Part shown: piece after piece, positions 28,345 through 59,601 of the stretch | Layout of the letters: the number at the start of each line of letters is the position of its first letter | How positions within the stretch are numbered: position 1 is the stretch's first letter | From: Halothiobacillus sp. | GTDB lineage: Bacteria; Pseudomonadota; Gammaproteobacteria; Halothiobacillales; Halothiobacillaceae | NCBI GenBank assembly: GCA_020061705.1 | Contig: JAGUXT010000058.1 | Span: 1-64,000 of the forward strand | Length of the DNA stretch: 64,000 bases | Reading direction: 5' to 3' | Translations under genes and position numbers: made by a program | The notes under the pieces: generated by a model | The model's input: the letters and a program-made list of their open reading frames with translations, nothing else | What the model was told of the DNA's origin: nothing | Database searches by the model: none

Positions 28345-28745
28345 CACGCAACTTCGCCAGTTCACACGGCTTCTCCCTACTCGAAGTCCTGGTAGCTCTC
28401 AGCATCATGGCCATCAGCCTCGGCGTACTCTACCAAACGCAAATCGGCGCCACGCGCAACCTGACCCAAAGCCTCGCGCTCGAGCGCGCCACCCTCTACG
28501 GCCAAAGCATTCTTGCCAATGCCACTGGCGTTGCGGCTGATCACGACATGCTTGAAGGCTCGTTTGAAGATGGTTACCGCTGGCAACTCAGCATCACCCC
28601 CATCGACATCCCGCCACCACCACCCGCCGAAAAACCCATTATTCCCATGCTGCAACTTGATCTCGACATCTTTTGGCTGGAGGGCAACAAAGAGCGACAA
28701 CTACACCTGCAAAGCCTGAGCCGCCCGGCAACGAGTCAACCATGA
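28341..28745 (+). CDS. gspI: Type II secretion minor pseudopilin GspI
   Basis: 134 residues. Leader of 10 residues ending in Gly, then FSLLEVLVALSIMAISLGVLYQ with Glu at +5. The arrangement of a short pilin-like protein with a core helix and ERATLYGQSILAN matches GspI, which together with GspJ and GspK forms the tip complex of the pseudopilus. It overlaps both gspH and gspJ by four bases. Confidence 0.9.
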   Translation: MTRNFASSHGFSLLEVLVALSIMAISLGVLYQTQIGATRNLTQSLALERATLYGQSILANATGVAADHDMLEGSFEDGYRWQLSITPIDIPPPPPAEKPIIPMLQLDLDIFWLEGNKERQLHLQSLSRPATSQP

Positions 28746-31307: not shown

Positions 31308-31885
31308 TTCCTTTGCTGCACCAACACCGTGCTTGGCTCGCACCACTACTAACCCTAATCGTCACCCTGCTCTTGCTTGTCGCTATTTTCATTCCGCTCG
31401 CCGCTAAACAAAACCAGTACAACACCATCATCCAAAAAAGTCAGCCGCGTATTGAGCGGGTTCAGGGGCTGCTTGCCGCTGCACCACAACTCGAAAACCA
31501 ACTGAACGCTGCGCGCGTAACGGCACAAGCCCAGCTTTACCCAAACACCAGCGATGAAAACCGCCTCAATACCGAACTTCAAACCCGCCTACGCAACCTT
31601 GCGCAGCAAAGCGGCCTGACCGTCGGCAGCCTACGCGCACTCCCTTCGCGTAAAGAGCTCAACCTTGAGGTTCTCCTTTTAAACCTCAGCCTGCAAGGCG
31701 GCTTGACTGAGTTTCAAAAATTCATCGACGCCGTACAACACCCATCTGAGGCGGCTCCTGCCCTGCGCATTGACAACCTCATCTTGCGCCGCGCAAGTAT
31801 CGTACCCAACACGCCGCAGACCCTCGCCATTGACATCACGGTTGCTGCGCTACAGCCTGCCTCGAATCAAACGGCTACACCATGA
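31304..31885 (+). CDS. gspM: Type II secretion protein GspM
   Basis: 193 residues. One N-terminal membrane segment (LAPLLTLIVTLLLLVAIFIPL), a periplasmic coiled-coil stretch (IERVQGLLAAAPQLENQL), then a ferredoxin-like domain (LSLQGGLTEFQKFIDAVQ, ALRIDNLILRRASI). This is the GspM_b/PilO-like pattern. It would pair with GspL at the inner membrane. It is coupled to both neighbours by four-base overlaps. Confidence 0.78.
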   Translation: MIPLLHQHRAWLAPLLTLIVTLLLLVAIFIPLAAKQNQYNTIIQKSQPRIERVQGLLAAAPQLENQLNAARVTAQAQLYPNTSDENRLNTELQTRLRNLAQQSGLTVGSLRALPSRKELNLEVLLLNLSLQGGLTEFQKFIDAVQHPSEAAPALRIDNLILRRASIVPNTPQTLAIDITVAALQPASNQTATP

Positions 31886-32508
31886 AGCTTTACCACCACA
31901 ACCTCATCCTGCTGACCCTGTTACTTATTAGCAGTCTTGGCCTCGCCGCGTGGTGGAGTGCCCAACTGCGCCCCCTTAACAACTTAAGCTGGAAAGCGAT
32001 CCCTCCAGAAATACCTGCTTTACCAATTTTCGACACTGCCCCGATTGCCAGCAGCAATCAAAGCCTGGAGCGCCCCATTTTCTGGGAAAGTCGCCGCCCA
32101 CAGGCTCCTCAGAAAAATGTCATGCCCCCCATCGCAGCACCCGTGCCGATGGAGCTCCTGGGCATTGTTAGTGAAGGCAATCAGCGCGTCGCCCTTTTAC
32201 GTCCGCTCCAGGGTACGCCGCCCCTTCTCGTACGCCGCATGCACCAGGGCGAAAGCTATAACGGAATGACCATTCAACGCATTGACAACGATCGCGTCAC
32301 CCTTGATAGCGCCAATGGCCCGCAAATCATCCCCCTCAAGCGCGGCAGTCAAAACCCCAATGCCAACAAACCCGCCAAACTCAGTGCACCACAAACCATC
32401 GAAACGACGCGCAGCAAGCTCCCGGACGCACTGCAACAACGCATTGACGAACTCAAAAACAAAGCCGCGCAGCAAGCTCAACAACCTGTCGCCGCACCAC
32501 CTCCATAA
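31882..32508 (+). CDS. Type II secretion protein N/C (XpsN-like, GspC analogue)
   Basis: 208 residues. A single N-terminal membrane segment (LILLTLLLISSLGLAAWWSA), a Pro-rich linker, and a homology-region-like domain (MELLGIVSEGNQRVALLRPLQGTPPLLVRRMHQGES...IQRIDNDRVTLDSANGPQIIPL), which is the pattern of the GspC HR domain that contacts the secretin. A Gln/Ala/Pro-rich tail replaces a PDZ domain. In xps of Xanthomonas the gene at this position is xpsN, which does the job of GspC. It stands directly before gspD. Confidence 0.72.
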   Translation: MKLYHHNLILLTLLLISSLGLAAWWSAQLRPLNNLSWKAIPPEIPALPIFDTAPIASSNQSLERPIFWESRRPQAPQKNVMPPIAAPVPMELLGIVSEGNQRVALLRPLQGTPPLLVRRMHQGESYNGMTIQRIDNDRVTLDSANGPQIIPLKRGSQNPNANKPAKLSAPQTIETTRSKLPDALQQRIDELKNKAAQQAQQPVAAPPP

Positions 32509-32566
32509 GTTGGGGCTTGCCCCTTAAACCTGATACAACCATATTTTGCCAAGGACTTCACAACAC

Positions 32567-38614: not shown

Positions 38615-38726
38615 CGTCAATTCACGGAGTGTCAGACCGGGTCAATGATTTAGCGTATGACACAGCGCCCTTAGGTGCTGTTTTTTGTTTTCCTTTCCCG
38701 AATACTTCATCTTTCCTCATCAACCT

Positions 38727-39515
38727 ATGCACAAACTTTTTCCCTTGCTTCGCCCTCTCCTACTGCGGGAATGGCGTGAAACCTACGCAGGCTCGCTGCT
38801 CGGTGGCGCATGGAATCTTGTCCAACCACTCTTGTTCGTATTGCTGTATTGGTGGGTGTTTAGCGCGGTGTGGAAAATGCGCCTGCCTGCATCAAGCGCC
38901 GATGGCAGCGAGTTGCCGTATATCGTGTTTTTGCTTAGCGCCATGCTGCCGTGGATGGCATTCCAGGAGAGCCTAGTGCGCGGAGTGTCGTCTGTAGTCT
39001 CAAAAGCCGATGTACTGCGCCATAGCCCTTTCCCCGCCACGCTCTATCCACTGTCGCGCGTACTGGCAGCGCATGGCACCTTTGTACTGGTGATGCTGGT
39101 CGCGTGGGCAGCGCTGTGGGCGGCGGGAATGATGCCAACTAGCCCATGGATGCTGCTGGTCGCGCTGCTATGGCTGGGTTTGCAGGCCTTGTTTGCGCTC
39201 GGCCTAGCTTGGCTTTTGGCGGCATTGGCGGTGTATTTGCGCGATTTAATCCATGCGGTCGCCATGGTGATGACTTTTTTATTGTTTACCGCGCCCATTC
39301 TTTACCCGCTTAGCCAAGTACCCGCAGATTGGCGGGCTGTGGTGTGGATGAACCCTTTTACGCCATTTGCAGAAGGTTTTCATGCGATTTTGTTGCACGG
39401 AACCATGCCTTCGATATTGAGTCTGGGCTTGGGTTTCGCTTACACCGCTTTGGCGCTTTTGCTGGGCTACAGCCTGTTTCGCAAGCTGCAAGCGGGGTTT
39501 GTGGATGTTTTGTGA
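38727..39515 (+). CDS. wzm: O-polysaccharide ABC exporter permease Wzm
   Basis: 262 residues from ATG 38727; the track start at 38685 is a TTG. It has six hydrophobic segments and the ABC-2 permease pattern LLLREWRETYAGSLLGGAWNLVQPLLFVLLYWWVF, LPYIVFLLSAMLPWMAFQESLVRG, then VLRHSPFPATLYPLSRVLAAH and FTPFAEGFHAILLHG. With Wzt it moves an undecaprenyl-linked polysaccharide across the inner membrane. In P. aeruginosa, wzm and wzt export the D-rhamnan A-band; the gmd-rmd-GT genes here are 28 kb away. A palindrome of 68 bases separates it from wzt. Confidence 0.9.
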   Translation: MHKLFPLLRPLLLREWRETYAGSLLGGAWNLVQPLLFVLLYWWVFSAVWKMRLPASSADGSELPYIVFLLSAMLPWMAFQESLVRGVSSVVSKADVLRHSPFPATLYPLSRVLAAHGTFVLVMLVAWAALWAAGMMPTSPWMLLVALLWLGLQALFALGLAWLLAALAVYLRDLIHAVAMVMTFLLFTAPILYPLSQVPADWRAVVWMNPFTPFAEGFHAILLHGTMPSILSLGLGFAYTALALLLGYSLFRKLQAGFVDVL

Positions 39516-39608: not shown

Positions 39609-40775
39609 ATGACAAATATTCCCGCTTTTCGCTTAACCGAGACCAGCAAATCCTATGCGGTGTACGCGCATCCGCTTGACCGTCTTAAGGAGTTGTTTTC
39701 CACCCGCCCACGCCATCGTTTGTTTACCGCATTGCACCCCTTGTCGCTAGATATCCCGCAAGGGAGTTCGTTGGGGATTGTTGGCGATAACGGCGCAGGC
39801 AAGAGTACGCTGATGCACTTGCTGGCGGGCACACACACGCCCACCAGCGGCACAATCGAACGCAACGGGCGCATCCTTGGCTTGCTTGAACTGGGCGTAG
39901 GCTTTCACCCAGAGTTCAGCGGGCGCGATAACCTGCTATTTCAGGGCGATATTTTGGGCATTGATCGCGGCTTTATCCAAGAGAGGATGCAGGACATTCT
40001 TGATTTTGCAGAGATTGGTGAGTTCATAGACCAGCCATTACGCACCTACTCAACTGGCATGAAAGTCAGACTTGCCTTTGCTTTGATTGCTTCACTCGAC
40101 CCGGACACGCTAATTGTGGATGAGGCACTGGCGGTCGGGGATATGCACTTTCAAAAAAAATGTATCGATCGAATGACCTCCTTCCGCGAAGCTGGAAAGA
40201 CCATCATTTTGTGTTCGCATAGTCTTTATCAAATTGAATCCTTCTGCGACGAGGTTATTTGGCTAAGGAATGGGCACCTAGAAATGTCTGGCTCGGCGAG
40301 TGTGGTTTTACCAGCTTACGAACGCTATCAACTGACCAAGACGTTACCCGCCGTTGAGCATGCAGCGGTACCCTCAGGCCAGCCCTTCATTCGGCGATTT
40401 GAATTACTATCCCCCCGGCCTTTGTCCATGGGGCAACATATGCTCATGGAGTGGGAAATTGAAGCGCCAATCGACACCCCCCACCACTACACACTTTCAT
40501 TAAAAATGGAGAACGGGCGCGGAGTGCATGTAACCGGCTCCCGCCTGCGCGAGGAGGCTCCACGCAAGGGTTCCGGGGTAGAACGCGCTCAGTTCGAAAA
40601 CATCCCTCTGGCTTCAGGATTTTTCATGCTGCATTTGCGATTGTGGGATGAAACTGGCCTCGTGCTGATGCACGAGCGCGTGCTGGAAAACATTGAAGTT
40701 CGCAAAAACGACCGTGAGCTTGGCTTTATGCGTATTCCTTTTGCCAGCCAATGGGTGCCTGATGCAAAAAGCTAA
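39609..40775 (+). CDS. wzt: O-polysaccharide ABC exporter ATPase Wzt with C-terminal glycan-binding domain
   Basis: 388 residues. ATPase domain 1-240: Walker A GDNGAGKST, signature YSTGMKVRLAFA, Walker B DTLIVDEALAVGD and switch His in CSHSLYQIE. Residues about 250-388 form a beta-rich extension (FELLSPRPLSMGQHMLMEWEIEAP, SGFFMLHLRLWDETG) like the Wzt carbohydrate-binding domain, which in known systems recognises the modified end of the finished chain. This suggests an O-antigen whose length is set by a terminal modification. The GT4 gene downstream overlaps it by 14 bases. Confidence 0.92.
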   Translation: MTNIPAFRLTETSKSYAVYAHPLDRLKELFSTRPRHRLFTALHPLSLDIPQGSSLGIVGDNGAGKSTLMHLLAGTHTPTSGTIERNGRILGLLELGVGFHPEFSGRDNLLFQGDILGIDRGFIQERMQDILDFAEIGEFIDQPLRTYSTGMKVRLAFALIASLDPDTLIVDEALAVGDMHFQKKCIDRMTSFREAGKTIILCSHSLYQIESFCDEVIWLRNGHLEMSGSASVVLPAYERYQLTKTLPAVEHAAVPSGQPFIRRFELLSPRPLSMGQHMLMEWEIEAPIDTPHHYTLSLKMENGRGVHVTGSRLREEAPRKGSGVERAQFENIPLASGFFMLHLRLWDETGLVLMHERVLENIEVRKNDRELGFMRIPFASQWVPDAKS

Positions 40776-41925
40776 AGCCGACTCGAAACCAGTCTTGCTC
40801 TGGGTGCTTGCTTCCGATGCTTTCGGAGGCGCCGAGGCTCTTTCGCATGGCTGTCTTCGGGAGTTGATGCCACATTTTGAGATAGTTTTGCTGACCCAAG
40901 AGGCCTTAGTAACTCACTTCAGCTTACTTGACTTGCGCATACACACATTCGAGCACGAAGGACTGAATACGCCGCACGCCTACAATGCGCGGAACATGTG
41001 GCGCTATGCGCGCACCATTGCCTTTGTCGCAAGACAAAAGAAAGCCGATGTTATCCATGCCGTCATGCACAATGCCTCGTTGTTTTTGGCTCTGGCTCGC
41101 TGGCTGGCTCCCCTATCCATGCGCGGCAGGCGAAGTGTGGGCAGCCTGCACGGGTCATTACAAGGTTTTTACCAAAGCATCGGTCGTGCTCCGTCTTCGC
41201 TCGAACGCTTTGCAATATCCTTTACCGCCTTTACGCTAGATAAGGTCATTACCCCCTCCAAAGGGATAGCTCATGAACTTCATTCAATCTTCAGAGTGCC
41301 AAAAAGCAGATTGATGCCTATTTACAACGGGATTGATCTTCAGGATGTACAAAGGCGATCTTGCGAATTTCGCGTGGAAAAAAAACGCGAGCACTGGATT
41401 GTAGGGTGTGGTCGTCTCGAAGCTCAGAAAGATTTTGATGTTTTGATCCATGCTTTTCGGGCATTCCGGCTCCAGCACAAAAACCTTCCTGCACGACTTG
41501 TTTTAATTGGTGATGGCTCGGAAAAAATACGACTGCAACAACTTTGCGTTGAGCTTGAAATTCAAGGTGCAGTTCAGTTTGCTGGGTTTCAATCCAACCC
41601 TTACCCATTGATTGCTGCTGCCGATGTTTTGGTTCTACCGTCACGCTACGAAGGCTTCGGCCTAGTTTTGGTCGAGGCCATGGTGCTTGCTGTCCCGGTG
41701 ATAGCCAGCGACTGCCCCTGGGGTCCAGGTGAGATTATTGAAAACGGAGAAAGCGGCCTACTCTTTCAAGTTGGACACGCCGAGCAACTGGCATCCAGGC
41801 TTGAACAAGTTTTACTCAATACTGAGCTTGCAGCACGCCTTAGCAAGGCCGGTCAAGCGCGCGCAGAGTTCTTCCAGATCGCTCGCATGGCTGAAGAATA
41901 TGCAAAAGCCTTTCTCCAGAATTAG
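40762..41925 (+). CDS. Glycosyltransferase family 4
   Basis: 387 residues from ATG 40762, which overlaps wzt; the track start at 40693 lies well inside wzt and adds no homology. Features are WVLASDAFGGAEALSHGCL at the acceptor side, IYNGIDLQD, VGCGRLEAQKDFDVLIHAFRAF, VLIGDGSEKIRLQQLC, VQFAGFQSNPYPLIAAADVLVLPSRYEGFGLVLVEAM. The last is the GT4 donor motif with two Glu. It probably adds a sugar to the polysaccharide exported by Wzm/Wzt. Donor and linkage are unknown. Confidence 0.87.
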   Translation: MQKAKADSKPVLLWVLASDAFGGAEALSHGCLRELMPHFEIVLLTQEALVTHFSLLDLRIHTFEHEGLNTPHAYNARNMWRYARTIAFVARQKKADVIHAVMHNASLFLALARWLAPLSMRGRRSVGSLHGSLQGFYQSIGRAPSSLERFAISFTAFTLDKVITPSKGIAHELHSIFRVPKSRLMPIYNGIDLQDVQRRSCEFRVEKKREHWIVGCGRLEAQKDFDVLIHAFRAFRLQHKNLPARLVLIGDGSEKIRLQQLCVELEIQGAVQFAGFQSNPYPLIAAADVLVLPSRYEGFGLVLVEAMVLAVPVIASDCPWGPGEIIENGESGLLFQVGHAEQLASRLEQVLLNTELAARLSKAGQARAEFFQIARMAEEYAKAFLQN

Positions 41926-41939
41926 CGAGAGCCTAAACA

Positions 41940-43073
41940 ATGCCCGGCATACCTGTCCGCGTCTTGATTTTTCTGCCCACTACAGGTTTTGGCGGTGCCG
42001 AGCGCACCATACTAAACCTTATTACACACACTGACTCTTCTCAGGTCGAGATCGTACTTGTCACGCATGCTGTTGTTTATTCAGGGGTATCGGTGCCGGT
42101 TTTAGACCTTTCGGACTACGGTCTAGCCAGCGGCTATGCAGGAATTCGTCGAACTTGGCGAGATGCTTTCCGCCTAGTCCAGCTAGCACGAGAACACAAA
42201 TGCCAAGTGATTCTTGGCTTTTTGCATTACGGTGCCATTGCCGCAAGCTGGGCTCGCCTCCTGTCAGGCAACCAGATCAAGGTCATCGCCAGTCCTCGAA
42301 CCCCATCCCGTGCTGGCATAGCATTCCATGTTCCCACCCAAAGAGCCCGCCTGGAGTGGCATGCACAGGTGAATGTACTCGCTCGCCTTGCGCATCGGGT
42401 AATCGTGGCGACTGAAGGCCTGAAAACGGAGCTTGTAGAGCACTACGGCGCGCGCAAAGAACATATTCATGTCATTGCCAACGCCATGGATAAGGAACGG
42501 ATCGCATCCATTGCGGCCACCAAGATTGAAAAGGATATCCCTTTGATCGTGACCTCCGGGCGTCTTGCTCCTGAGAAAGACATAGGCACCCTATTGCACG
42601 CTTTTGCCCTGGTTCGCGCCCAAATGCCTTGCCGCTTGACTCTGCTCGGCGAAGGCCCTGAACGCAGCGCCCTGGAAGCTACAGCACGTGAGCTAGGGGT
42701 GGATCAAGACGTGGTTTTCCACGGCTTTCATGCGGAGCCCTTCGCCATTATCAAGTCCGCTGATGTCTTTGTGCATACATCTCGATTCGAAGGGTTTGGC
42801 AACGTGCTGATCGAGGCCATGGCATGCAGCGTGCCCATCGTAGCCACCGACTGCGACTTTGGCCCTAGGGAAATCATCCAGCATGGCGAAAATGGCCTGC
42901 TCGTCCCACCAAACGATCCCGATGCGCTTGCACTGGCCATCCTGACGGTACTCAACGACCACGCGCTCGCCGCACGCATGGTCGAGTCAGCCAATACCGG
43001 GCTGGGGCGCTATGCGCCAAACGTAATGACCCGAGACTATGAGAGAGCCATCATTGATCTGGCTCAGGGTTAA
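41940..43073 (+). CDS. Glycosyltransferase family 4
   Basis: 377 residues. The N-terminal VLIFLPTTGFGGAERTILNLI is the GT4 acceptor loop. The donor side shows TSGRLAPEKDIGTLLHAFALV, LTLLGEGPERSALEATAREL, VVFHGFHAEPFAIIKSADVFVHTSRFEGFGNVLIEAM and CDFGPREIIQHGENGLLV. It resembles N-acetylgalactosaminyl- or glucosyl-transferases in general form, but no specificity can be assigned. It is similar enough to the gene just upstream to suggest an old duplication. It ends within the first copy of a 12-base tandem repeat. Confidence 0.87.
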   Translation: MPGIPVRVLIFLPTTGFGGAERTILNLITHTDSSQVEIVLVTHAVVYSGVSVPVLDLSDYGLASGYAGIRRTWRDAFRLVQLAREHKCQVILGFLHYGAIAASWARLLSGNQIKVIASPRTPSRAGIAFHVPTQRARLEWHAQVNVLARLAHRVIVATEGLKTELVEHYGARKEHIHVIANAMDKERIASIAATKIEKDIPLIVTSGRLAPEKDIGTLLHAFALVRAQMPCRLTLLGEGPERSALEATARELGVDQDVVFHGFHAEPFAIIKSADVFVHTSRFEGFGNVLIEAMACSVPIVATDCDFGPREIIQHGENGLLVPPNDPDALALAILTVLNDHALAARMVESANTGLGRYAPNVMTRDYERAIIDLAQG

Positions 43074-44273: not shown

Positions 44274-47200
44274 ATGAATTCAATTTTTGCCGAAAATATC
44301 TACCTTCCCTTCAAGTCCTGCACCCTTCCAAAGGGTCACTGGCTGATTCTCGCGCCGCACGCCGACGACGAAACGTTTGGCATGGGGGGTGCGATCGCCC
44401 TCGCAGTGCAGGCAGGCTCGCAAGTGGATGTTCTTATCATGACGGATGGCGCTCAGGGCGGTGACGCGCCCGATCTCGTCGCCACGCGAGAAGATGAGGC
44501 TCGACGTGCCGTCCAAGCCCTCGGCTGCTGCCGCGTCGATTTTCTTCGTCAGCCGGATCGCGGGCTGAATGTGAGCGCAGCACTTATCGAACGAGTCGCC
44601 GATCATGTCCGTGCCGCGGGGTACACGGCTGTGTTCTTCCCCTCCCCCGTCGAACCGCACCCCGATCATCGTGCCACTGCGCAAATTGGCTGGGAAGCAC
44701 TGCGCAAAGCCGAATTCAGCGCTGCGCCAATAAGCTATGAGATCAGCACACAAGGCCCGTGCAATGCGCTGGTGGATATTTCATCTGCTGTGGAAAAAAA
44801 AGCCGAAGTGATGCGGCTATATGCCTCGCAGCTCACCCAGAATGCCTATGTCGAGCGCATCCTTGGATTGAATGCCGCCCGCGCATGGTCGTTGCCGCTG
44901 GATGTGACGCACGCGGAAGCTTTTTACCTGTGGACACCCGCCGACCAACCGCTTTCCGCCCAGCTCTGGGGCATTCAGTATGTGCAGCAGTCCGGATACG
45001 CGCTGCCAGCGATCGAAACCCTGGTTAGCATTATCGTGCGCACCATGAATCGCCCTGAGATGTTGCGCGAGGCTATTCGCTCCGTGGCTCATCAGACACA
45101 CACCTCCATTGAGCTTGTGGTGGTCAACGATGGTCGCGATGACTTTGCAGCGCTGATTGAGGAAGAAGCGACAGGATCAATACAAAGCGTGCACTACATC
45201 ACGAACGATGGCACGCATGGGCGCGCCCAGAGTGCCAATCTGGGCTTGCGACACGCCAGCGGGGATGTCATTGGCTTTCTTGATGACGACGACTGGTTGC
45301 TGCCCAACCATTGTGCTTTGTTGCTTAGCCAGCTCCAGGAACACCCAGCGGCCATGGCATGCTACGGCGGCGTGGACTCAGTGCGCTTTGAGGAAGGACG
45401 TGAAGTTTTCCTGCATCGTTTCAACGATCCGTTTGACCCTCTGCGGTTGGCTTACAACAACTTCATGCCAATTCACTCGGTGCTTTTCAGGAAGGCGGCC
45501 ATTCAGCGTGGATGCGCGTTTGATGAAAATCTCGATCTGTACGAAGACTGGCATTTCTGGTTGCAACTGGCGCAGCTCGGCACATTTGTTCATGTGAATG
45601 AAGTTACAGCGAAATATCGCATTAGCACTGAAAGCGGAGTCGGCTTGCCTAACAGCCAGCGCGATTTCACGCGCGACATGAACCTTTTTGTTGAAGCAAG
45701 CCGTGGAGTTTGGAGCACCGAACAACTGCGATACATGTGCATGTCCACGCTTCAAGTCAAAAACTTGAGCGACGAAGTGGCAAGGCTGCACAGCGTCACA
45801 ACAACCTTGCAAGAGAGTGCTGTTGTACTTAATCAGTCGATCAATGATCTTGAACAACAACTAAGCGAAAAATCCGCGCGCATCCACACGCTTGAGGCCG
45901 AGCGTGTACAGCAACAGCGCGAACACATCGCACGCATCAGTGACATTAAAGCTGAATACGAACAGCACTTCGCCGAACATAGCGCGCATATTCACGCACT
46001 AACTGCCGAATTGCACACTCACGAACGCCAACGTGCTCTATGGCAAGCGCGTTTCGAGGAAGTCACAGGGAGTCGCTCCTGGAAACTGACAACCCCTTTA
46101 CGCTTTTTGGGGCGCAAAGCGCGCGTTGCACGTCATCTGGCTCGGCAAGCCATCGAGCGTGTGCACAACGAATCATGGCGCACGCTGCTGCATAAAACTC
46201 GCGAGGTTTGGCATGAAGAAGGCCTGCGCGGGGTCTGGGCGCGCATCCTGGGGCAGCAGAAAGTTACCGACGCTCCGGTAGGCATCCCACAAAGCGCCAT
46301 CCCCACACCCCAGACCAGCCTTGTGCGCCAAGCGGACGGATACTACACCTTGCACGCGGGCACATCAGGCTACCAGTACATTCCGCCCGCACCACCGCTG
46401 GATTTGCAGGCATGGCTGGATGCACTCGCTACGCCGCCTTTCTTTTCAATCGTGGTTCCGGTCTACAACACGCCGCAAGGGCTCCTTACCGAGCTTATCG
46501 ACTCGGTGCAGGCACAGTGGTATCCGCACTGGGAGCTGGTACTGGCAGATGACGCAAGCTCTAGCGAGTCTTTGCAGCATGAGCTCGCTGCCTTGAATGA
46601 CCCGCGTATCTGCATCGTTCGTCTGGACGGCAACCTAGGGATTTCCGGCGCAACCAATGCTGGCGTTGCCGCAGCAAAATATGAGCGGATTATCTTTGCC
46701 GATCACGATGACCTTCTAACCGTCAACTGCCTGTATGAGCTGGCGCGCTGCATTGAGCGTGAGGCTCCTGATTTTATCTACAGCGACGAGGACAAGCTGG
46801 ACGAACAAGGCTACTTTGTTCAGCCGCACTTCAAGCCCGACTGGTCGCCGGACACCATGATGAGCACCATGTTCACCGGACATATCTCCTGCGTGCGCAA
46901 AGCCTTGTTTGAAGAGCTTGGCGGCCTGCGTACCGAGGTCAACGGCTGCCAGGACTGGGATTTTGTACTGCGCGTAGCGGAGTACACCCAGCATTTCTGC
47001 CATATTCCCAAAGTGCTGTACCACTGGCGGATTATTCCGGCCTCGGTGGCGGCTGATATCGCCGCCAAGCCGTATGTGCTTGCTGCCTCAAAAAAAGTGC
47101 GTGAAGACGCTCTGCTGCGGCGCGGTTTATCGGGGCTGGTGGAAGCCGTAGAGCAGGTTCCAGGCTATTTCCGCGTGAATTATTTACCACAAAACAACCC

Positions 47201-48020
47201 TCTGATTTCCATCGTTATTCCAACACGCGACCATGCCCAGGTTTTACAGCGCTGCATCGAGTCCATCGAACGCAAAAGCAGTTACCACCATTTTGAAATC
47301 ATCGTGTTGGATAACGGGTCCAAGGACAGCGCCACGCTGGCATTCCTTACCACATTGGAAAAAGAAAACCGCGCCCGCGTCATTCGCCATGATCAGCCTT
47401 TCAATTTTTCCGAACTCAATAATATCGGCGCTGGGGCTGCACACGGTGAGTTACTGCTATTCCTCAACGACGACACCGAAGTACTGACCCCCGATTGGCT
47501 GGAGCGCATGGCTGGTTACGCTCAGCTGCCGCATGTCGGCGCCGTGGGTGCCAAACTGCTGTATCCCAGCGGTGAAACCCAACATGCGGGTGTACTCAAC
47601 TTGAGCGAAGGGCCGATCCACGCCTTCCTGAATACCTCAGCCGACAGCCCCGGCTATTTCATGCGCAACCTGCTGGAGTACGACTGGTTGGCCGTGACCG
47701 GCGCGTGCCTGATGCTTGAGGCCAAGAAATTCCACACGGTGGGCGGCTTCGATGAAAGCTTCCCGGTAGCCTATAACGATGTAGAGCTGTGCTTCCGCCT
47801 GGCTGATGCCGGGTTGTACAACGTGGTTTGCCAAGCCGTTCGTGTACGGCACTATGAGTCGCAAACTCGCGGCCTCGACCATCTTGATGCTGCCAAACGC
47901 CAGCGCCTCAAAGACGATATGCGGCGTCTGTACGCCGTGCATCCGCGCTATTTCCAGTACGATCCTTTCCACAACCCCAATCTTCATCCCAACGGGATTC
48001 ATTTTGAGTTGCTTGCCTGA
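44274..48020 (+). CDS. PIG-L deacetylase fused to three GT2 glycosyltransferase domains
   Basis: 1,248 residues from ATG 44274; the 54 codons upstream in the track have no homology. Residues 1-235 are a PIG-L/LmbE deacetylase: PHADDETFG (28-36) and EPHPDH (127-132) supply the zinc ligands and catalytic Asp. A first GT2 domain begins near 247 (LVSIIVRTMNRPEMLREAI, DDDDW near 335). A coiled coil covers about 500-600 and ends with SRSWKLTTPLRFLGRKAR, common in rhamnan-type GT2 proteins. A second GT2 starts near 722 (FSIVVPVYNTPQGLL, ADHDD) and a third near 975 (LISIVIPTRDHAQVLQRCIESI, NDDTEV). The protein has no membrane segment and should work in the cytoplasm. Its stop overlaps the next ATG. 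It would build and possibly N-deacetylate a glycan; substrates are unknown. Confidence 0.9.
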   Translation: MNSIFAENIYLPFKSCTLPKGHWLILAPHADDETFGMGGAIALAVQAGSQVDVLIMTDGAQGGDAPDLVATREDEARRAVQALGCCRVDFLRQPDRGLNVSAALIERVADHVRAAGYTAVFFPSPVEPHPDHRATAQIGWEALRKAEFSAAPISYEISTQGPCNALVDISSAVEKKAEVMRLYASQLTQNAYVERILGLNAARAWSLPLDVTHAEAFYLWTPADQPLSAQLWGIQYVQQSGYALPAIETLVSIIVRTMNRPEMLREAIRSVAHQTHTSIELVVVNDGRDDFAALIEEEATGSIQSVHYITNDGTHGRAQSANLGLRHASGDVIGFLDDDDWLLPNHCALLLSQLQEHPAAMACYGGVDSVRFEEGREVFLHRFNDPFDPLRLAYNNFMPIHSVLFRKAAIQRGCAFDENLDLYEDWHFWLQLAQLGTFVHVNEVTAKYRISTESGVGLPNSQRDFTRDMNLFVEASRGVWSTEQLRYMCMSTLQVKNLSDEVARLHSVTTTLQESAVVLNQSINDLEQQLSEKSARIHTLEAERVQQQREHIARISDIKAEYEQHFAEHSAHIHALTAELHTHERQRALWQARFEEVTGSRSWKLTTPLRFLGRKARVARHLARQAIERVHNESWRTLLHKTREVWHEEGLRGVWARILGQQKVTDAPVGIPQSAIPTPQTSLVRQADGYYTLHAGTSGYQYIPPAPPLDLQAWLDALATPPFFSIVVPVYNTPQGLLTELIDSVQAQWYPHWELVLADDASSSESLQHELAALNDPRICIVRLDGNLGISGATNAGVAAAKYERIIFADHDDLLTVNCLYELARCIEREAPDFIYSDEDKLDEQGYFVQPHFKPDWSPDTMMSTMFTGHISCVRKALFEELGGLRTEVNGCQDWDFVLRVAEYTQHFCHIPKVLYHWRIIPASVAADIAAKPYVLAASKKVREDALLRRGLSGLVEAVEQVPGYFRVNYLPQNNPLISIVIPTRDHAQVLQRCIESIERKSSYHHFEIIVLDNGSKDSATLAFLTTLEKENRARVIRHDQPFNFSELNNIGAGAAHGELLLFLNDDTEVLTPDWLERMAGYAQLPHVGAVGAKLLYPSGETQHAGVLNLSEGPIHAFLNTSADSPGYFMRNLLEYDWLAVTGACLMLEAKKFHTVGGFDESFPVAYNDVELCFRLADAGLYNVVCQAVRVRHYESQTRGLDHLDAAKRQRLKDDMRRLYAVHPRYFQYDPFHNPNLHPNGIHFELLA

Positions 48021-49858
48021 TGGATACCTCGTCAATGCCCAAGTTATCCTCGCACCATGCCGTTGCAGCGGCACTGCGTGATGTCCCCAACGCAGAAATG
48101 CTTGCATCGCTGCTCGACCAGGCTCGCTGTGTATCCTTCGACTTCTTCGACACCTTGTTTGCGCGCCCTTTTGCCGAACCTGAGTTTGCCTTTGAATTGC
48201 TCGGCAGACGCTTGGGTGTGGGCGACTTCCGCCAAAAGCGTATCGCGGCACAAACAGAAGCCTTTCGCCGCATGGCCGCAGAGGGGCGCAAGGAAATCCG
48301 CCTGAGCGACATTTACGCCTGCTTTGATGTGGATGCAGACACCCAAGCCCGGTGGCTTAGCGCCGAAGTCGAACTGGAACTGGCCCTCCTCGCGCCCAAG
48401 CCCGCCGTTCTGGCGCTCTTTCAAGCCTTGCGCACAGCGGGTATGAAACTCGCCATCAGTTCCGACATGTACTTTCCACAGACGTTTTTTGAGGATGCCT
48501 TACGCCAGCACGGCATAGAAAGTGTAGAAATGCTGCTGGTCTCCGCCGAGATTGACGCGACCAAACGCGATGCCGGTGAATTGTTTGATGTTCTTGTCCG
48601 CATGAGCGGCATAGCGGCACCAAACGTACTGCACATTGGCGACCATGCCGTCGCGGATGTAAAACGTGCTCAGGAACGGGGGCTCATGGCCTTTCATTAC
48701 GATGCCAGCCCAAGTGCAAGCCGTGAAACTGCCGAGCGCGCCTACACCCTGCATGGCTTGTGGGAGCGCTGCAAAAAACCATCGAACGATGAGCTTTTTC
48801 AGCGCCTAGGTTTCCTCTATGGCGGCCCGGCCAATTTGGGCTATCTGCACTGGCTGGCCGAACAGGCCAAAAACGACGGCATTGAACACCTGCTTTTCCT
48901 CTCGCGAGATGGCTTTCTGCTCGAACGTCTTGCCTCGAAAAACGTGGTTACAGGCCTGCCCACCCATCGTTACTTTCTTGGCTCGCGCGTGTCCTATTAT
49001 CTGGCCGCCATCACCGAAAAGAATTTTTCCGCCTACATTCCCTTTCTCTTGTCAGGAAGCCACGGGTTGATGCCGCGCGAGCTGCTCGAACGCATTGGCG
49101 TCACACCGCCGGATGAGGCTGTCATGCGTGATATTGGCCTGGGCTCCGATGTCGTCATTACGCATGACATGGAAGAGAAGCTTGCCCGCTTTCTGTACGC
49201 ATGGCGCGGCGAAATCCTGAAGGTCTGTGCGCGCAATCGACGCGCCTTGCACCTTTACCTGGTTTCGCTGGGCATCCATACGGGCGCACAACTTGGGCTG
49301 GTCGATGTCGGCTGGAGCGGCTCGACGCAAGAAGCGTTTGAAGCCGCCGTGCGCCCGTGGTTGGGTGTGCAGGTGACGGGCTATTACTTCTGCCTCGCCG
49401 ACACACCTGAACGTCAGGCGCGCGACAAGCAACAACACATGCGCGCCATGTTTTCCTCCGCCACCCACGATGTAGCGTTCATCGGACAAATTTATGCCAA
49501 TCGCTCCATCGTCGAACTGTTTTTTTCCGCGCCACACCACACCGTGATTGGTTGGCTGGCCGATCAAAAAACAGGACAAACCGAACCTGTGCTGGACGCA
49601 GGTCGCGGCGGCTCGCCGGCCGGTCTGGCACAGATCACCCACGAGATCAGCACAGCGGCAGAGGACTTTGTGGCCTGTTATCAAGCCATGACCACGCAAT
49701 TAGGCGCAGGATTATCCCCAAGCGAACTGGCGCAAGCCCTGCTACATCTCACCGTGCACGAAGACGTACAATGCCGTGCTTTCTCTTCGCGCATCATCAA
49801 CTTTGATACGTGGTCGAGCTCGCTCAATCACAGCATGGATCTCATAACCTACGCATGA
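48020..49858 (+). CDS. HAD-superfamily protein with C-terminal RDG/GWSG module (COG5610-like)
   Basis: 612 residues. A HAD domain (37-235) has motif I SFDFFDTLFAR (Asp41, Asp44), motif II AISSDMYF (Ser148), a Lys near 182 and motif IV HIGDHAVADVKRA (Asp208). The C-terminal 350 residues have no family I can name; conserved-looking points are LFLSRDGFLLERL (293-305), VSYYLAA, LVDVGWSGSTQEAF (427-440) and VTGYYFCLA. The same module ends the next protein. HAD motif I DxxD fits a phosphatase or phosphotransferase acting on sugar phosphates or lipid-linked phosphates, but that is inference. It overlaps the genes on both sides, so all three are made together. Confidence 0.82.
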   Translation: MDTSSMPKLSSHHAVAAALRDVPNAEMLASLLDQARCVSFDFFDTLFARPFAEPEFAFELLGRRLGVGDFRQKRIAAQTEAFRRMAAEGRKEIRLSDIYACFDVDADTQARWLSAEVELELALLAPKPAVLALFQALRTAGMKLAISSDMYFPQTFFEDALRQHGIESVEMLLVSAEIDATKRDAGELFDVLVRMSGIAAPNVLHIGDHAVADVKRAQERGLMAFHYDASPSASRETAERAYTLHGLWERCKKPSNDELFQRLGFLYGGPANLGYLHWLAEQAKNDGIEHLLFLSRDGFLLERLASKNVVTGLPTHRYFLGSRVSYYLAAITEKNFSAYIPFLLSGSHGLMPRELLERIGVTPPDEAVMRDIGLGSDVVITHDMEEKLARFLYAWRGEILKVCARNRRALHLYLVSLGIHTGAQLGLVDVGWSGSTQEAFEAAVRPWLGVQVTGYYFCLADTPERQARDKQQHMRAMFSSATHDVAFIGQIYANRSIVELFFSAPHHTVIGWLADQKTGQTEPVLDAGRGGSPAGLAQITHEISTAAEDFVACYQAMTTQLGAGLSPSELAQALLHLTVHEDVQCRAFSSRIINFDTWSSSLNHSMDLITYA

Positions 49859-52800
49859 GTGCCTTAGCCAAGCCCTTTGTCAGCGTGATTATGCCACTGT
49901 ACAACCACGCAGCCTTTGTTGTGGATGCAGTGCAGAGCGTATTAAGCCAAGAAGGTGTTGAGATCGAATTGATCGTGATCGACGATGCCTCTAGCGACAC
50001 GAGCTGGGAGCTCGTCAACACAATTCACGATGAGCGCGTGCGCTGCTTTCGGCATGAAAAGAACCTTGGCGCGCACACCAGTCTTAACGAAGGTCTAGCC
50101 ATAGCTCGCGGCGAATGGCTGGCAATCATCAACTCAGACGATTTGTTTGCGTCTGGGCGCCTGTTGCGTTGCGTCGCACACATGCAAACGCAAGGCCTGG
50201 ATCTTGTCGGCTCAGACATTTGCCTGATGGATGGCTCGGGTCACCTCATTACCGAACACTGGTGGGTTTCTGCATTTAACGACCTTAAACAGTGCTGGCA
50301 CACGTCCCACGACTGGGCAAGTACTCTGCTTTTTGGCAATGTTTTCATGACCACGTCGAATTTCGTCATGCGTCGCCAAGTCTTTGAACGGCTGGGTGAT
50401 TTTTCAGCCGATCGTTACGTGCATGATTACGACTACCTGCTCCGGGCACTCGCCTTAGGCGTGCGTATGGGCTGGATAGACGAACCTCTATTGCGCTACC
50501 GCCTGCATGAAAACAATACTATTAGTGCAAGCCCCTTAGCCGCCAATCGAGAATGTGCCGCGCTATTGCGCCGCATATTGCCCCGTATGCAAAAGTTGTT
50601 CGCCTCACCCCAGCACGGCTTACAGCGCATTGAGGCTCTAAGTGCTCAATGGGCACGCATGGATCGTTATGTCGATGAAATCTGGGCTGCCTTGCAACAT
50701 CAAGCATTGGTCAATAAAGAGAACGAACTCATCCCATTGATCCACGACCGTGATAGTTGGATTCAGGAGCGTGATCGACGGATTACAGATCTCAATCAGT
50801 GGATCAAAGAGCGGGACCAGTGGATTGCTGAACGAGACCAGTGGATTGCTGAGCGGGATCAGTTGATTGCTGAGCGGGATCAGTTGATTGCTGCGCGGGA
50901 TCAGCTGATTGCTGCGCGCGACCAGGAGATTGCTGAGAGGGAACAGAGGATAGCAGCAAGGGACCAAGTGATCCTCACTATGCAAAACCAGCAAGCTGAA
51001 CAAGAACAAAGAAACCAGCGACTGCTTCAGGCATTGACGCAAGCCCAAAGTCATATCCAAAAAATCGAGTACAGTAAAAGCTATCGCCTCGCCCGCCTTC
51101 TTGGTTGGCCAGTACGCAACTTGCGCACACTCTGGAAGAAAATGCTGGCATTTAACTACCGACAACGCTGGTTAACTCTTTTTAGTGCTCCCCCATTGCC
51201 CCAACACGCCATACTCATAAGGGCTGTAAGCCTTGACGAAATACAAAATCACCTGCAAAACCTCCCCGCCAACGTAAGGTGCATCTCATTTGATGTCTTC
51301 GACACCCTGCTCGCCCGGTGCATCGAACCACCCGACAGTCTGCAACGCCGAGTGTGCGCCGAAATTGCGGATAAACTTGGCCTGCCTCACACCCCGGAAA
51401 GTGTTTGGCAAGCTCGCCAATTCACCGAAAACGAACTACGCCAAGCCTGCCTAAATCAAGGTGGCGATTACGAATGCCACTTCGAACCACTTGTTGAAAT
51501 CTGGGTCGAGCGGCTTTTGGGTCAAGCGAATCCTGTATTGGTCGAATGGATACACCGATGCGAACGCCGTATTGAAAGCCTCGCACTGAGCGCCAAACCC
51601 GGCATCCACTCGCTACTGCAAAAGCTTCACGCACGAGGCCTGCGGGTCATCGCCGTCTCGGACATGTATCTTGGTGAAGAGCATGTGCGCGCCTTGTTGC
51701 ATGACTGCGGCCTCGGTGCGCTGATTGACCAACTCTATGTGTCCGCCGACTATGGCGTTGGCAAATACTCTGGACGCCTGCATCAGCACGTTTTAGATGC
51801 AGAGGGCCTACAGCCAGACCAAGTCATCCACATCGGAGATAACCTCGCGTCAGACATGCTGGCTCCGTTGCGCCTTGGAATTCAGGGCATATTCCTTGAT
51901 GAGCGTGAAGAACGTCTGCGCCGGCGCCATCAAAGTCTCTCCGCCGAAATGGCGCAACAATGCGACTCACAGCCCAGCGTTTGGCAGGGACGACATTTTT
52001 TTGAAATCGTCGCGCAGCATCAACGCTTAAATCTTGCGCCCCCCAGTGAAAACCTGGAGTTTTTTGAACATTACGGACGCGATATTCTTGGATCACTATT
52101 TTCGGGTTTTACACTCGGTCTCGTTGAGCACCTACGCACTTTCAAACCCGACAAAGTATTTTTCCTCGCCCGCGATGGCTACCTGTTTCAGCAGCTTTAC
52201 ACCCGCTGGGGCGAACTTATGGATGCCGATGAAGCTCCGCTGCCCAAAGCCTGCTACGCCTATGTATCTCGCCGCGTTGTCGCCAGCGCAGCGATTGCAC
52301 ACGGCATGACCCACGCACAAGCACTCGTAGGCCTGTACAACCCCAAACAACACGGCTTACTTTCCGTTCTCAAAACCTATGGATTACCGATTGAGGATTT
52401 CCGAGCACATGCGCAACGCCACGGCTTCCTTGAACTCGATACCCCGCTCCATGATTGGCATGACCCTCGCCTTTTTAACTTCCTTGCCGATGAACAAGTA
52501 CAAAGCCAAATCAAATCATTCGGCCACAAGGCACGCGCTGACCTTGAGACTTACCTGAGCCAACTTGGGTTTTTTGACTGCCAACGAGTGGCTCTGGTCG
52601 ATATTGGCTGGAGCGGTACGATCCAAAAATTTCTCAATGAGGCCTTTGCCCATCGTGACGACTTTCCCGAAGTGCGCGGATACTACTTTGCATTCGTCGG
52701 ACAGATGCACAGTGAATTTGCGCAAGGTGACAAGATCGAAGGGTTACTCTGTGATGTGCGCCACCAAAACGCCTGTGAGCTCACCCCCGGGGAGTTTGAG

Positions 52801-53307
52801 GAGCTGTTTGAGCAAGGCGCAAGAGCGCTTGAAGCCACAACCCTCGGCTACAGCCGTCGGGAAGATGGCTCTGTGGTTCCGATACTCAAAGCCGACGACG
52901 CGCCAGACCGCCAAGGTGAAATTGCCTGCAACCCGTATATCACCGCCATGCACAAGGGTGTCATCAACCATCTGGAGCACTTCTTCGCCGCACAGCAACT
53001 CACCGGGTACAGCTTCAGCCAGCTAAAGCCCTACCTGCAGGCAGTCCTTGAACGCGCCGTGGTTTACCCCACCCAAGAAGAAATGGCGCACATTAGTCAA
53101 TTGGTACATACCGAAGACTTTGGTCATGACCACACACTTGAAATTGGTAGCGACACGCTACGTTGGCAACACATTTTGCGACCACGGCAATTCCTGCACC
53201 AACTCCGTATTGCGCCTTGGCGCTATGTCATATTCGCCCGTTTGGGCACACGTATTCCTATTCATACGTGGCTCTATCGCGTCTTTTGGTTGAGAAAGAA
53301 AAAATGA
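49855..53307 (+). CDS. GT2 / coiled-coil / HAD / RDG-GWSG multidomain protein
   Basis: 1,150 residues from ATG 49855, overlapping the previous stop (ATGA); the track GTG at 49810 is inside that gene. Domains: GT2 glycosyltransferase 8-230 (VSVIMPLYNHAAFVVDAV, NSDD at 93-96), a coiled coil about 285-385 containing eight seven-residue repeats of the type WIAERDQ, then SRSYRLARLLGWP-like linker (KSYRLARLLGWPVRNL), a HAD domain 475-685 (SFDVFDTLLAR, AVSDMYLGEEH, HIGDNLASDM) and the C-terminal module (FFLARDGYLFQQLY near 768, LVDIGWSGTIQKFLNEAF near 915, VRGYYFAFVG). The last two parts repeat the architecture of the upstream protein. It has no membrane segment. A glycosyltransferase joined to a phosphatase-like unit suggests chain building coupled to a phosphate step, which is inference. 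Confidence 0.85.
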   Translation: MSALAKPFVSVIMPLYNHAAFVVDAVQSVLSQEGVEIELIVIDDASSDTSWELVNTIHDERVRCFRHEKNLGAHTSLNEGLAIARGEWLAIINSDDLFASGRLLRCVAHMQTQGLDLVGSDICLMDGSGHLITEHWWVSAFNDLKQCWHTSHDWASTLLFGNVFMTTSNFVMRRQVFERLGDFSADRYVHDYDYLLRALALGVRMGWIDEPLLRYRLHENNTISASPLAANRECAALLRRILPRMQKLFASPQHGLQRIEALSAQWARMDRYVDEIWAALQHQALVNKENELIPLIHDRDSWIQERDRRITDLNQWIKERDQWIAERDQWIAERDQLIAERDQLIAARDQLIAARDQEIAEREQRIAARDQVILTMQNQQAEQEQRNQRLLQALTQAQSHIQKIEYSKSYRLARLLGWPVRNLRTLWKKMLAFNYRQRWLTLFSAPPLPQHAILIRAVSLDEIQNHLQNLPANVRCISFDVFDTLLARCIEPPDSLQRRVCAEIADKLGLPHTPESVWQARQFTENELRQACLNQGGDYECHFEPLVEIWVERLLGQANPVLVEWIHRCERRIESLALSAKPGIHSLLQKLHARGLRVIAVSDMYLGEEHVRALLHDCGLGALIDQLYVSADYGVGKYSGRLHQHVLDAEGLQPDQVIHIGDNLASDMLAPLRLGIQGIFLDEREERLRRRHQSLSAEMAQQCDSQPSVWQGRHFFEIVAQHQRLNLAPPSENLEFFEHYGRDILGSLFSGFTLGLVEHLRTFKPDKVFFLARDGYLFQQLYTRWGELMDADEAPLPKACYAYVSRRVVASAAIAHGMTHAQALVGLYNPKQHGLLSVLKTYGLPIEDFRAHAQRHGFLELDTPLHDWHDPRLFNFLADEQVQSQIKSFGHKARADLETYLSQLGFFDCQRVALVDIGWSGTIQKFLNEAFAHRDDFPEVRGYYFAFVGQMHSEFAQGDKIEGLLCDVRHQNACELTPGEFEELFEQGARALEATTLGYSRREDGSVVPILKADDAPDRQGEIACNPYITAMHKGVINHLEHFFAAQQLTGYSFSQLKPYLQAVLERAVVYPTQEEMAHISQLVHTEDFGHDHTLEIGSDTLRWQHILRPRQFLHQLRIAPWRYVIFARLGTRIPIHTWLYRVFWLRKKK
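50800..50967 (+). repeat. Eight 21-base tandem repeats encoding seven-residue coiled-coil units
   Basis: Units such as TGGATTGCTGAGCGGGATCAG follow one another without gaps; the central ones differ by one or two bases. Each unit encodes one heptad (WIAERDQ, LIAERDQ, LIAARDQ). Unit number can change without shifting the frame. Confidence 0.92.
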
Positions 53308-53543
53308 AACGCAGCCGCCTGATCATGAGCGTTGGAAGCCTGTGGTGGATGGCACAAGCCTTCCGCTTTGCTCCGCGCAGAGGAGAGTGTTTCGGCCCTG
53401 GCCTAGGGCGATTATTGCGCTACGAACGCTTGCGCGCTTGGCACGCAATGTTTGATAGCGACCGCTGGCAATTGTGGAAACTGCGTTTACGGACAATGTT
53501 TGCCCGCCGCCGCAACTCTGTGAAGCCTAACAGGGCGATTTAA
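53304..53543 (+). CDS. Small basic hypothetical protein
   Basis: 79 residues from ATG 53304, overlapping the preceding stop by four bases (ATGA), which is the reason to accept it; the longer track start at 53163 lies inside the upstream gene. It is rich in Arg, Trp and Leu (SLWWMAQAFRFAPRRGECFGPG, RRNSVKPNRAI) with no signal peptide or clear membrane helix. I do not recognise it. Coupling with the multidomain glycan gene suggests a partner or a truncated remnant of a longer protein. Its stop overlaps the stop of the minus-strand GT41 gene. Confidence 0.55.
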   Translation: MKRSRLIMSVGSLWWMAQAFRFAPRRGECFGPGLGRLLRYERLRAWHAMFDSDRWQLWKLRLRTMFARRRNSVKPNRAI

Positions 53544-55765
53544 AGCAGACCCAACCAGCGTCGATACCAAGGACGCAGCCGAGTAGAAGGCATAGTTTCG
53601 GTCACATCAGGCACTGGCGTCGTCGAACGCGACACGCGCAACACCTCCGGTGCTAAACCCGCCTGATAGCGTGACCACATCTGCTGATACGCGTCTTCCA
53701 AATCGTGCGTGAAGCTCTCGCTTTCAAACAGGGGGCAGCGCAACCGTTCACGCAGCAAATGCTCGCGCAAACGCGCCAATTCCTGCGGATCACCCGCCAG
53801 ACGCACTAGCTGTGCCTGGTACGTGGCAGGTGTGTCGGCGACCAACTCGCCCAACCCCACCGCACGCAACAGACTTGCCGCAACGCGCCCGGCAAAGGTA
53901 TCGCCCAGACACGTCACCACAGGCACCCCCACCCACAGGGCATCACTCGCTGTGGTGTGGGCGTTGTAGGGCAGGGTATCGAGAAAAAGATCGGCCAAAC
54001 TCAGGCGCGCCAAATGTTGCGCATGGGGCAGTTTTGGCGCGAAAACCAGACGCTTCGCATCCACACCCTGATCTTGCGCAAACTGCGTCAGGTTTTCGCG
54101 CACCGCATCACCCCCATCCAAAACCCACAACACGCTGCCCGGCACCTCGCGCAACACCTCACACCACAATGCAAAAAACGCCGGGGTCAACTTGTAACTG
54201 GTATTGAAGCAGCACAACACCACGCCCTGCTCCGGCAACCCCGCCATCGTGCGCGTCGGCACTTCAGCCACGGCACGCTGCCGATCATTGCACTGGTAGC
54301 TCCAGGGCATGTAAACCGGCTTCTCGCTATAGTCCGCCTGATGCGCTTCGGGTAAAACGACATCGTCGGCAATGATGTAATCCCAGTAGTCCCCGCCCAA
54401 CGTGCCCGGGTAGCCCAAATAATTCACCTGAATTGGCGCGGGGCGCAGCGCAATGATTTCGGGGCGTGCATGTTCGGTGTAGCCCTTCAGATCAACCAGA
54501 ATGTCGATGCCATCTGCGCGAATCTGGGTGTTGATCTGCGCAAGACTCTTGCCGCGCAAATTGTGAAATACATCAAACGCCTGCACCAAACGCTGACGCA
54601 TCGGCGAACCATCATCCTTGCCCAGTGAATAGGCAAAAATCTCGAAGCGACTGCGCTCATGCAGCTCAAAAACCTCGGCCATTAGCCACGCTGTAGGGTG
54701 GGCGTGAAAATCGGCGGAAAGGTAGCCGATACGCAGGCGCTCGCCTTGTGTCGGCTTAACGTGTTCGAGCGGGGAGGCGCTGGTTCCTGACTCGTACTTA
54801 AGCTGCGCCGCCCAGCGGTCTGCGCGCTGGCGTTGCAAGGCGCGATCAAAGCCCGGAACTGACAGGGTGATAAACAAATCGCCCAGCTCCTCCTCAACTT
54901 CATGCGCGGCTTGAATGGTTGTAGAAACTGACGCATCGAATGCCGTCCACTCACAAAGCTGGCGCTCCAGACGATGCACGCGCCGGGCAAAACGCAGGCG
55001 GTAGGACGGCTCAAGCTCAACGGCTCGGTGCAGAGCGCGCAAGGCTGCGGATGCATCCTGTTCAACCACCACTTCCGACAATGCCAGGTACACATCCGCA
55101 ACCTGCGGATGACTTTGGAGGCAATGCTGGATTTCCGCCTCAGCGCGCTCGGATTGTCCCAGTAAGCGGTAACTTTCCGCCAGATTCAAGCGTGCATCCA
55201 GCAAATCAGGCGCAAGCTCAAGCGCCCGCTGAAACTGCACCAGCGACGCTGGCAATTGATCGAGATGGCGCATGGCCATGCCTAACGTGGTGCGCGCTTG
55301 CGCCTCGATCGGCGGGTTTACACTCGGCAATGCAAGCAAATGCTCACAAGCCTGATAAGCCAGCGGCCAATCGTGTTGCGCCTGCGCTGCCTGCACCAAA
55401 CGAAACCATGCCTCTTCCAACTTTGGATTTAGCTCGGTAGCACGACGAAAAGAATCGAGGGCAGAAACAAGTTCGCCCATGCGCTGCTCGATCTGGCCGA
55501 TATGCAGCCACAGCATCGCGTTACCTGCGTCCAACTCCGCCGCGTAACGCATATCCTCCAGCGCCTCGGAAAAGCGCCCCAACTCACGCCGCGCCATGCC
55601 GCGCAGGTGATAGGCATCCGCCACATCATGCGCTGGCGCACCCGTGGTCGCCAAACGCACAATCAAGGCATCACTCAATGCAGCGGCATGCTGCATGTTA
55701 CCCGCCTGCAAAACAGCCATAACGTCAGCGATCGCCACAGCAGCGCTCCCCTGTTGCTCCATCAT
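53540..55765 (-). CDS. TPR-containing SPINDLY/OGT-type glycosyltransferase (GT41)
   Basis: 741 residues from ATG 55765, with AAGGTGA just upstream; the track start is a TTG seven codons earlier. About residues 1-290 hold TPR units (GMARRELGRFSEALEDMRYAAELDAGNAMLW, LDSFRRATELNPKLEEAWFRL, FQRALELAPDLLDARLNLAESYRLLG). Residues about 320-720 are GT41: RIGYLSADFHAHPTAWLMAEVFE, NYLGYPGTLGGDYWDYIIADDVVLPE, CCFNTSYKLTPAFFALWCEVLREVPGSVLWVLDGG and GVPVVTCLGDTFAGRVAASLLRAVGL. Relatives glycosylate proteins on Ser/Thr using UDP-GlcNAc (OGT) or, for SPINDLY, GDP-fucose. Bacterial substrates are mostly unknown; adhesins or secreted proteins from this region are candidates. It is tail-to-tail with the small ORF and divergent from a rhamnosyltransferase gene. 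Confidence 0.9.
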   Translation of the reverse strand: MMEQQGSAAVAIADVMAVLQAGNMQHAAALSDALIVRLATTGAPAHDVADAYHLRGMARRELGRFSEALEDMRYAAELDAGNAMLWLHIGQIEQRMGELVSALDSFRRATELNPKLEEAWFRLVQAAQAQHDWPLAYQACEHLLALPSVNPPIEAQARTTLGMAMRHLDQLPASLVQFQRALELAPDLLDARLNLAESYRLLGQSERAEAEIQHCLQSHPQVADVYLALSEVVVEQDASAALRALHRAVELEPSYRLRFARRVHRLERQLCEWTAFDASVSTTIQAAHEVEEELGDLFITLSVPGFDRALQRQRADRWAAQLKYESGTSASPLEHVKPTQGERLRIGYLSADFHAHPTAWLMAEVFELHERSRFEIFAYSLGKDDGSPMRQRLVQAFDVFHNLRGKSLAQINTQIRADGIDILVDLKGYTEHARPEIIALRPAPIQVNYLGYPGTLGGDYWDYIIADDVVLPEAHQADYSEKPVYMPWSYQCNDRQRAVAEVPTRTMAGLPEQGVVLCCFNTSYKLTPAFFALWCEVLREVPGSVLWVLDGGDAVRENLTQFAQDQGVDAKRLVFAPKLPHAQHLARLSLADLFLDTLPYNAHTTASDALWVGVPVVTCLGDTFAGRVAASLLRAVGLGELVADTPATYQAQLVRLAGDPQELARLREHLLRERLRCPLFESESFTHDLEDAYQQMWSRYQAGLAPEVLRVSRSTTPVPDVTETMPSTRLRPWYRRWLGLL

Positions 55766-55837
55766 GTTTTCACCTTTATCAATCAAGCCAGCAGGGTAAA
55801 CTACCCAACCCGCCGCTTCGTGTAAAATCGTGCACCT

Positions 55838-57753: not shown

Positions 57754-59601
<1,848 letters not shown>

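Follow-up and report, generated by a model that had tools for sequence, protein, structure and literature searches.

Two adjacent genes in a Halothiobacillus glycan locus probably encode two-step PRPP-dependent ribofuranosyltransferases

Judged from sequence and predicted fold, two adjacent genes, ORF1 and ORF2, are members of the known PRP-gPRT (CrpP-CriT) family of PRPP-dependent ribofuranosyltransferases, and it is very likely that both proteins act in the cytoplasm as two-step PRPP-dependent β-D-ribofuranosyltransferases, the product probably being exported as a surface glycan by a Wzm/Wzt-like transporter. They lie in a stretch of 64,000 nucleotides from Halothiobacillus sp. (contig JAGUXT010000058.1), which we refer to as the window. 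In characterised systems the gPRT moves β-Ribf-5-P from PRPP onto a glycan acceptor and the PRP strips the 5-phosphate, after which the chain is extendable (PMC10299916, PMC11127046, PMC12096443, PMC11231755). We infer the reaction of ORF1 and ORF2 from these characterised homologues, and the family, fold and conserved residues are assigned by comparison. The initial annotation had described the C-terminal module of the two proteins as unassigned and the system as undescribed. The module looked unassigned because the Pfam, NCBIfam and PHROGs models skip it, and the description has to be given up, as the module matches the characterised gPRT/CriT family together with its PRP/CrpP partner (PMC10299916, PMC11127046).

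ORF1 (48020–49858; window coordinates are on the plus strand unless stated otherwise) encodes 612 aa, with a HAD domain followed by the gPRT module (48785–49858, aa 256–612), which on its own matches Bcs3 and 7SHG in the PDB. ORF2 (49855–53307) encodes 1150 aa when started at ATG 49855, which we prefer to GTG 49810, and places a GT2 domain (49882–50394; PF00535 E = 1.4e-28, residues 25–195 of the GTG-started frame) and a repetitive coiled coil ahead of its HAD domain and module. The PRP and gPRT part of ORF2 (51217–53307) is defined by a phmmer match to 7SHG (E = 5.5e-17), by the family profile and by Foldseek, again with 7SHG. Immediately upstream is a gene for a protein with a PIG-L de-N-acetylase domain, a GT2 domain, a coiled coil and two further GT2 domains (44274–48020, best start about 44274; PF02585 E = 3.6e-25, three PF00535 stretches). 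Its stop and the ORF1 start share 1 nt (TGATG, 48018–48022), and the ORF1 stop and the ORF2 start share 4 nt (ATGA, 49855–49858). The architecture as first described, that is two adjacent ORFs each with a HAD phosphatase before a homologous module, a GT2 and coiled coil heading ORF2, and coupling to the deacetylase/GT2 fusion by overlapping stops and starts, is thus borne out, and all six of the motifs quoted for the two proteins were located.

Database searches with the two proteins converge on the same two structures, the Thermobacillus composti polysaccharide ribofuranosyltransferase (PDB 7SHG), reportedly the subject of Kelly et al. 2022 (Nat Chem Biol 18:530), and Bcs3, the capsule polymerase of H. 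influenzae type b (CroT-CrpP-CriT, 8A0C/8A0M). Against PDB sequences, phmmer with whole ORF1 matched 7SHG (E = 5.7e-21) and Bcs3 (8.7e-11), and the 7SHG match of ORF2 had its best stretch over the HAD part. When the ORF1 module was searched without its HAD domain, only Bcs3 and 7SHG were found (E = 5.7e-5 and 3.6e-4 respectively), with nothing else at E ≤ 10. The profile search with the isolated module, which the initial annotation had proposed as a check, used 10 sequences, none of them from the PDB, and returned 7SHG (E = 1.1e-55) and Bcs3 (1.4e-16) with nothing else at E ≤ 1; a full profile matched 7SHG over nearly its whole length (E = 1.2e-109). Searches of Pfam, NCBIfam and PHROGs gave HAD and GT2 only, with no model covering the module.

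The other proposed check, structure prediction followed by fold comparison, gave the same outcome. ORF1 and the HAD-module portion of ORF2 were modelled with AlphaFold (mean pLDDT 77 and 73), and in Foldseek searches with these models 7SHG and 8A0M/8A0C came first for both proteins, with 7SHG at 2.9e-22 for ORF1 and 1.4e-25 for ORF2. The next matches, at about 1e-6 and 1e-9 respectively, are HAD-containing proteins and are about ten orders of magnitude weaker. The global TM-scores are moderate (0.37–0.57, normalised by query) with large rmsd, which may reflect domain-orientation error across a low-confidence linker (ORF1 residues 230–256). Pairwise identity is low, at about 24–29% in aligned stretches and 16–19% to the PDB chains in Foldseek. 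As to nomenclature, a literature search for COG5610 gave nothing, and the CAZy name GT139 found no support in the literature search and is not used here.

The resemblance between the modules of ORF1 and ORF2 is beyond chance: BLASTP with the modules only gives E = 2.9e-9, and the Smith-Waterman score is 108 compared with 36 ± 5 (maximum 56) for 300 shuffles. The motifs of the module can be read against the PRPP pocket reported for Bcs3 CriT, which consists of S678/R679/D680, S707/R708, R712, E818, a loop at 821–825 with T825, and S884, and in which Ala at D680 and E818 lowers activity (PMC10299916). In the phmmer alignment ORF1 S295-R296-D297 fall on Bcs3 678–680, S322-R323 on 707–708 and D429 on E818, and the ORF1 WSGST falls on the 5-phosphate loop. 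The ORF1 SRDGF motif (48902–48916, aa 295) would therefore supply the predicted contacts to the PRPP β-phosphate (S, R) and ribose (D), GSRVS (48980–48994) is the predicted counterpart of S707/R708, and LVDVGWSGSTQ (49298–49330, aa 427) contains D429 and the predicted 5-phosphate loop. In ORF2, ARDGY (52168–52182, aa 772) holds the R and D of the predicted pocket with Ala in place of Ser at the S678 position, and LVDIGWSGTIQ (52594–52626, aa 914) holds the ribose Asp and the predicted 5-phosphate loop. The columns of Bcs3 R679, D680, S707, R708 and E818 are kept in ORF1 (R296, D297, S322, R323, D429) and in ORF2; the R712 position is Y in ORF1 and in T. composti and A in ORF2. A counterpart of Bcs3 E874, the proposed general base, could not be placed in ORF1 or ORF2. 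The remaining motif is TGYYF at aa 453 in ORF1 and RGYYF at aa 941 in ORF2.

Across 11 homologues, from which a match in one genome (G011, L005) was left out as a plain HAD protein, R296, G298, S322, R323, D429, G431 and Q437 (ORF1 numbering) are invariant. The earlier suggestion of constant and probably catalytic Asp, Arg, Trp and Ser residues is therefore only partly upheld: no substitution occurs at the RDG Arg and Gly, the VD Asp or the GW Gly, but the RDG Asp (D297) is D in seven and E in four homologues, the GWSG Trp (W432) is replaced by Y in two, and the GWSG Ser (S433) varies freely (S, N, M, K, G or A). We reject a catalytic Ser in GWSG on account of this variation; in Bcs3 the loop holds the 5-phosphate mostly through the main chain (PMC10299916).

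The HAD domain matches PF00702 in ORF2 (E = 4.3e-12) and, just below the cut-off of 26.4 bits, in ORF1 (E = 2.8e-5, 25.0 bits). In ORF1 we locate motif I in FDFFDTL (48137–48157, nucleophile D41), motif II in SDMY (48461–48472, S148/D149), motif III at K182 and motif IV, GD(H/N)xxxD, at 48638–48658 (G207, D208, D213). D41, D44, S148, D149, K182, G207, D208 and D213 are invariant across the 11 homologues. Motif I has only the first Asp of DxD (D-F-F or D-V-F), as is likewise reported for CrpP.

From the presence of tandem PRP-gPRT genes, the sequence suggests two β-Ribf additions per repeat. An alternative is that a single member of the pair has ribofuranosyltransferase activity, its partner being a scaffold or a copy in decay. 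This would fit a sister MAG (L007, Halothiobacillus neapolitanus), which has an ORF1 orthologue, 87% identical, and immediately after it one GT2 gene and then a GlmS-like gene (3665–5422), but no ORF2, so that ORF2 is dispensable there. However, both reading frames are open and the invariant residues of the HAD domain and the gPRT module are retained in each; identity where BLASTP aligns the two is only about 24%, so that a recent duplication of ORF1 is not the origin of ORF2. We regard a single active member as unlikely. It is quite unlikely, in our estimate, that the two enzymes use different acceptors to give two β-Ribf per repeat, one of them possibly acting on, or adjacent to, a sugar de-N-acetylated by the coupled PIG-L domain; if true, this would mean a new type of acceptor (glucosamine) or even N-linked ribosyl transfer. 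The strong divergence of the tandem pair makes it well suited to testing what determines gPRT acceptor specificity, and while the module itself is already known, the adjacency of two such enzymes gives a useful hint of which sugar is produced.

A second alternative keeps closer to the initial annotation, in that the pair would represent a new type of enzyme for assembling or editing glycan phosphates, one whose module transfers some phosphorylated group other than Rib-5-P or hydrolyses such phosphates, with phosphate staying in the glycan. The module has no Pfam or NCBIfam model and would be left blank by annotation pipelines, which leaves room for such a proposal, but it specifically matches PRPP-dependent ribofuranosyltransferases in sequence and fold with the PRPP-pocket residues kept. 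In addition, HAD motifs I–IV are intact in both proteins and the 5-phosphate should therefore be removed, and we consider this alternative very improbable. What stands of the earlier proposal is a catalytic module, glycan assembly and the addition and handling of phosphate; on our analysis phosphate need not remain in the mature glycan, the HAD domain probably removing a transient ribose 5-phosphate.

We propose that the gPRT module binds PRPP/Mg2+ and would move β-ribofuranose-5-phosphate to the non-reducing end of the growing glycan, and that removal of the 5-phosphate by the preceding HAD (PRP) domain would allow the next glycosyltransferase to extend the chain. ORF2, with its own GT2 across a coiled coil, would probably carry out one Ribf and one Leloir-type addition in the manner of a bipartite polymerase, and ORF1, acting with the PIG-L/GT2 protein to which it is translationally coupled, would add Ribf. 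The adjoining Wzm/Wzt-like ABC transporter would probably export the chain as O-polysaccharide or another surface glycan. That the pair instead phosphoribosylates polyprenyl phosphate from PRPP, giving undP-Ribf for periplasmic α-pentofuranose addition, is extremely improbable, for although ORF15-type polyprenyl phosphoribose synthases also carry PRP domains, the second half of those enzymes is a membrane prenyltransferase of the UbiA family without gPRT similarity (PMC11127046), whereas here the match is to the soluble gPRT, a Wzm/Wzt pathway is present and no UbiA-like membrane prenyltransferase domain was found by Pfam in ORF1 or ORF2.

The closest described systems resemble the pair in different respects. 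With 7SHG the two proteins share the PRP(HAD)-gPRT order, a profile match of nearly full length and the SR(E/D)G, SR and VDVGW(K/S)G motifs, although identity in the fold alignment is about 18%, 7SHG is a single enzyme rather than one of a tandem pair, and ORF2 adds a GT2 and a coiled coil. Bcs3 likewise has a phosphatase and ribofuranosyltransferase behind another transferase, with the PRPP-pocket residues conserved, but at its N-terminus it has a GT-B ribitol-phosphate transferase rather than a GT2, and its polymer is ribosyl-ribitol phosphate; it is also reported with a C-terminal SH3b domain. By its described layout Cj1432, the Campylobacter jejuni HS:2 capsule polymerase, is like ORF2 in having an N-terminal glycosyltransferase, a middle HAD phosphatase and a C-terminal PRPP-dependent ribosyltransferase, although the available part of that description mentions no coiled coil, which ORF2 has (PMC12096443). 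ORF1 is more like Klebsiella pneumoniae O4 ORF5 and O7 ORF7, stand-alone PRP-gPRT proteins with separate glycosyltransferases in ABC-transporter-dependent O-antigen loci; these loci are described with one Ribf transferase each, whereas here there are two and a coupled gene with a PIG-L deacetylase (PMC11231755). In E. coli K16, with a Ribf-Ribf-Kdo repeat, the cluster lacks a second Ribf transferase (PMC13171606).

The Halothiobacillus glycan locus that contains ORF1 and ORF2 is of the ABC-transporter (Wzm/Wzt-like) type and includes, upstream of the pair, a Wzm-like ABC-2 membrane subunit (38685–39515; PF01061 E = 9.2e-18), a Wzt-like ATPase (39609–40775; PF00005 E = 8.7e-21) and two GT4 glycosyltransferases (40693–43073; PF00534). 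Downstream of ORF2 are a TPR protein with a GT41 (OGT-like) domain on the minus strand (53543–55786; PF13844 E = 1.9e-95), two GT2 genes and, still inside the locus, a gene for a GlmS-like protein with a GATase and two SIS stretches (57754–59601), which could supply glucosamine for the glycan. The difference between L007 and the window is consistent with a variable surface-glycan locus. Halothiobacillus is a sulfur-oxidising genus, and the prediction that follows from this analysis is ribofuranose in the surface glycan of one of its members.

A scan of genome contigs with ORF1 found the sister MAG only, and a scan of viral contigs with ORF2 gave no match, so the homologues were taken from a genome search instead. 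With the full profile at 1e-20, matches occur in 28 of 399 sampled genomes of the phylum, some of them to the HAD part only. Within this sample an adjacent complete PRP-gPRT pair is seen only here, a weak statement as at most two candidates were scored per genome; in one genome (G667) two matches are separated by 14 kb. In two others (G307:C4 and G629:C22) the HAD match and the module match fall in different open frames with about 2 kb between them, which suggests split PRP and gPRT genes. A homologous locus of the order Wzm/Wzt, GT2, HAD-gPRT is present in G098 (L023), and a GT2 gene directly precedes HAD-gPRT there and in G147 (L024) and G039 (L025). In G160 (L026:8444–13540, minus strand) PIG-L, GT2, coiled coil, RgpF, HAD and gPRT are all encoded by one ORF, at most about 1,700 codons long, a fusion that ties the PIG-L/GT2 protein to ribosyl transfer. 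For want of a Pfam or NCBIfam model, members of the family carry annotations such as hypothetical protein or HAD hydrolase.

Two further features of the window lie ahead of the glycan locus. Just before it is a type IV pilus/MSHA-like cluster (23864–34804; T2SSE, T2SSF, PilN, N_methyl and secretin), and at 10818–16506 there are two adjacent large proteins with DUF5122 β-propeller repeats and DUF4214, the first of which also matches an RTX repeat.
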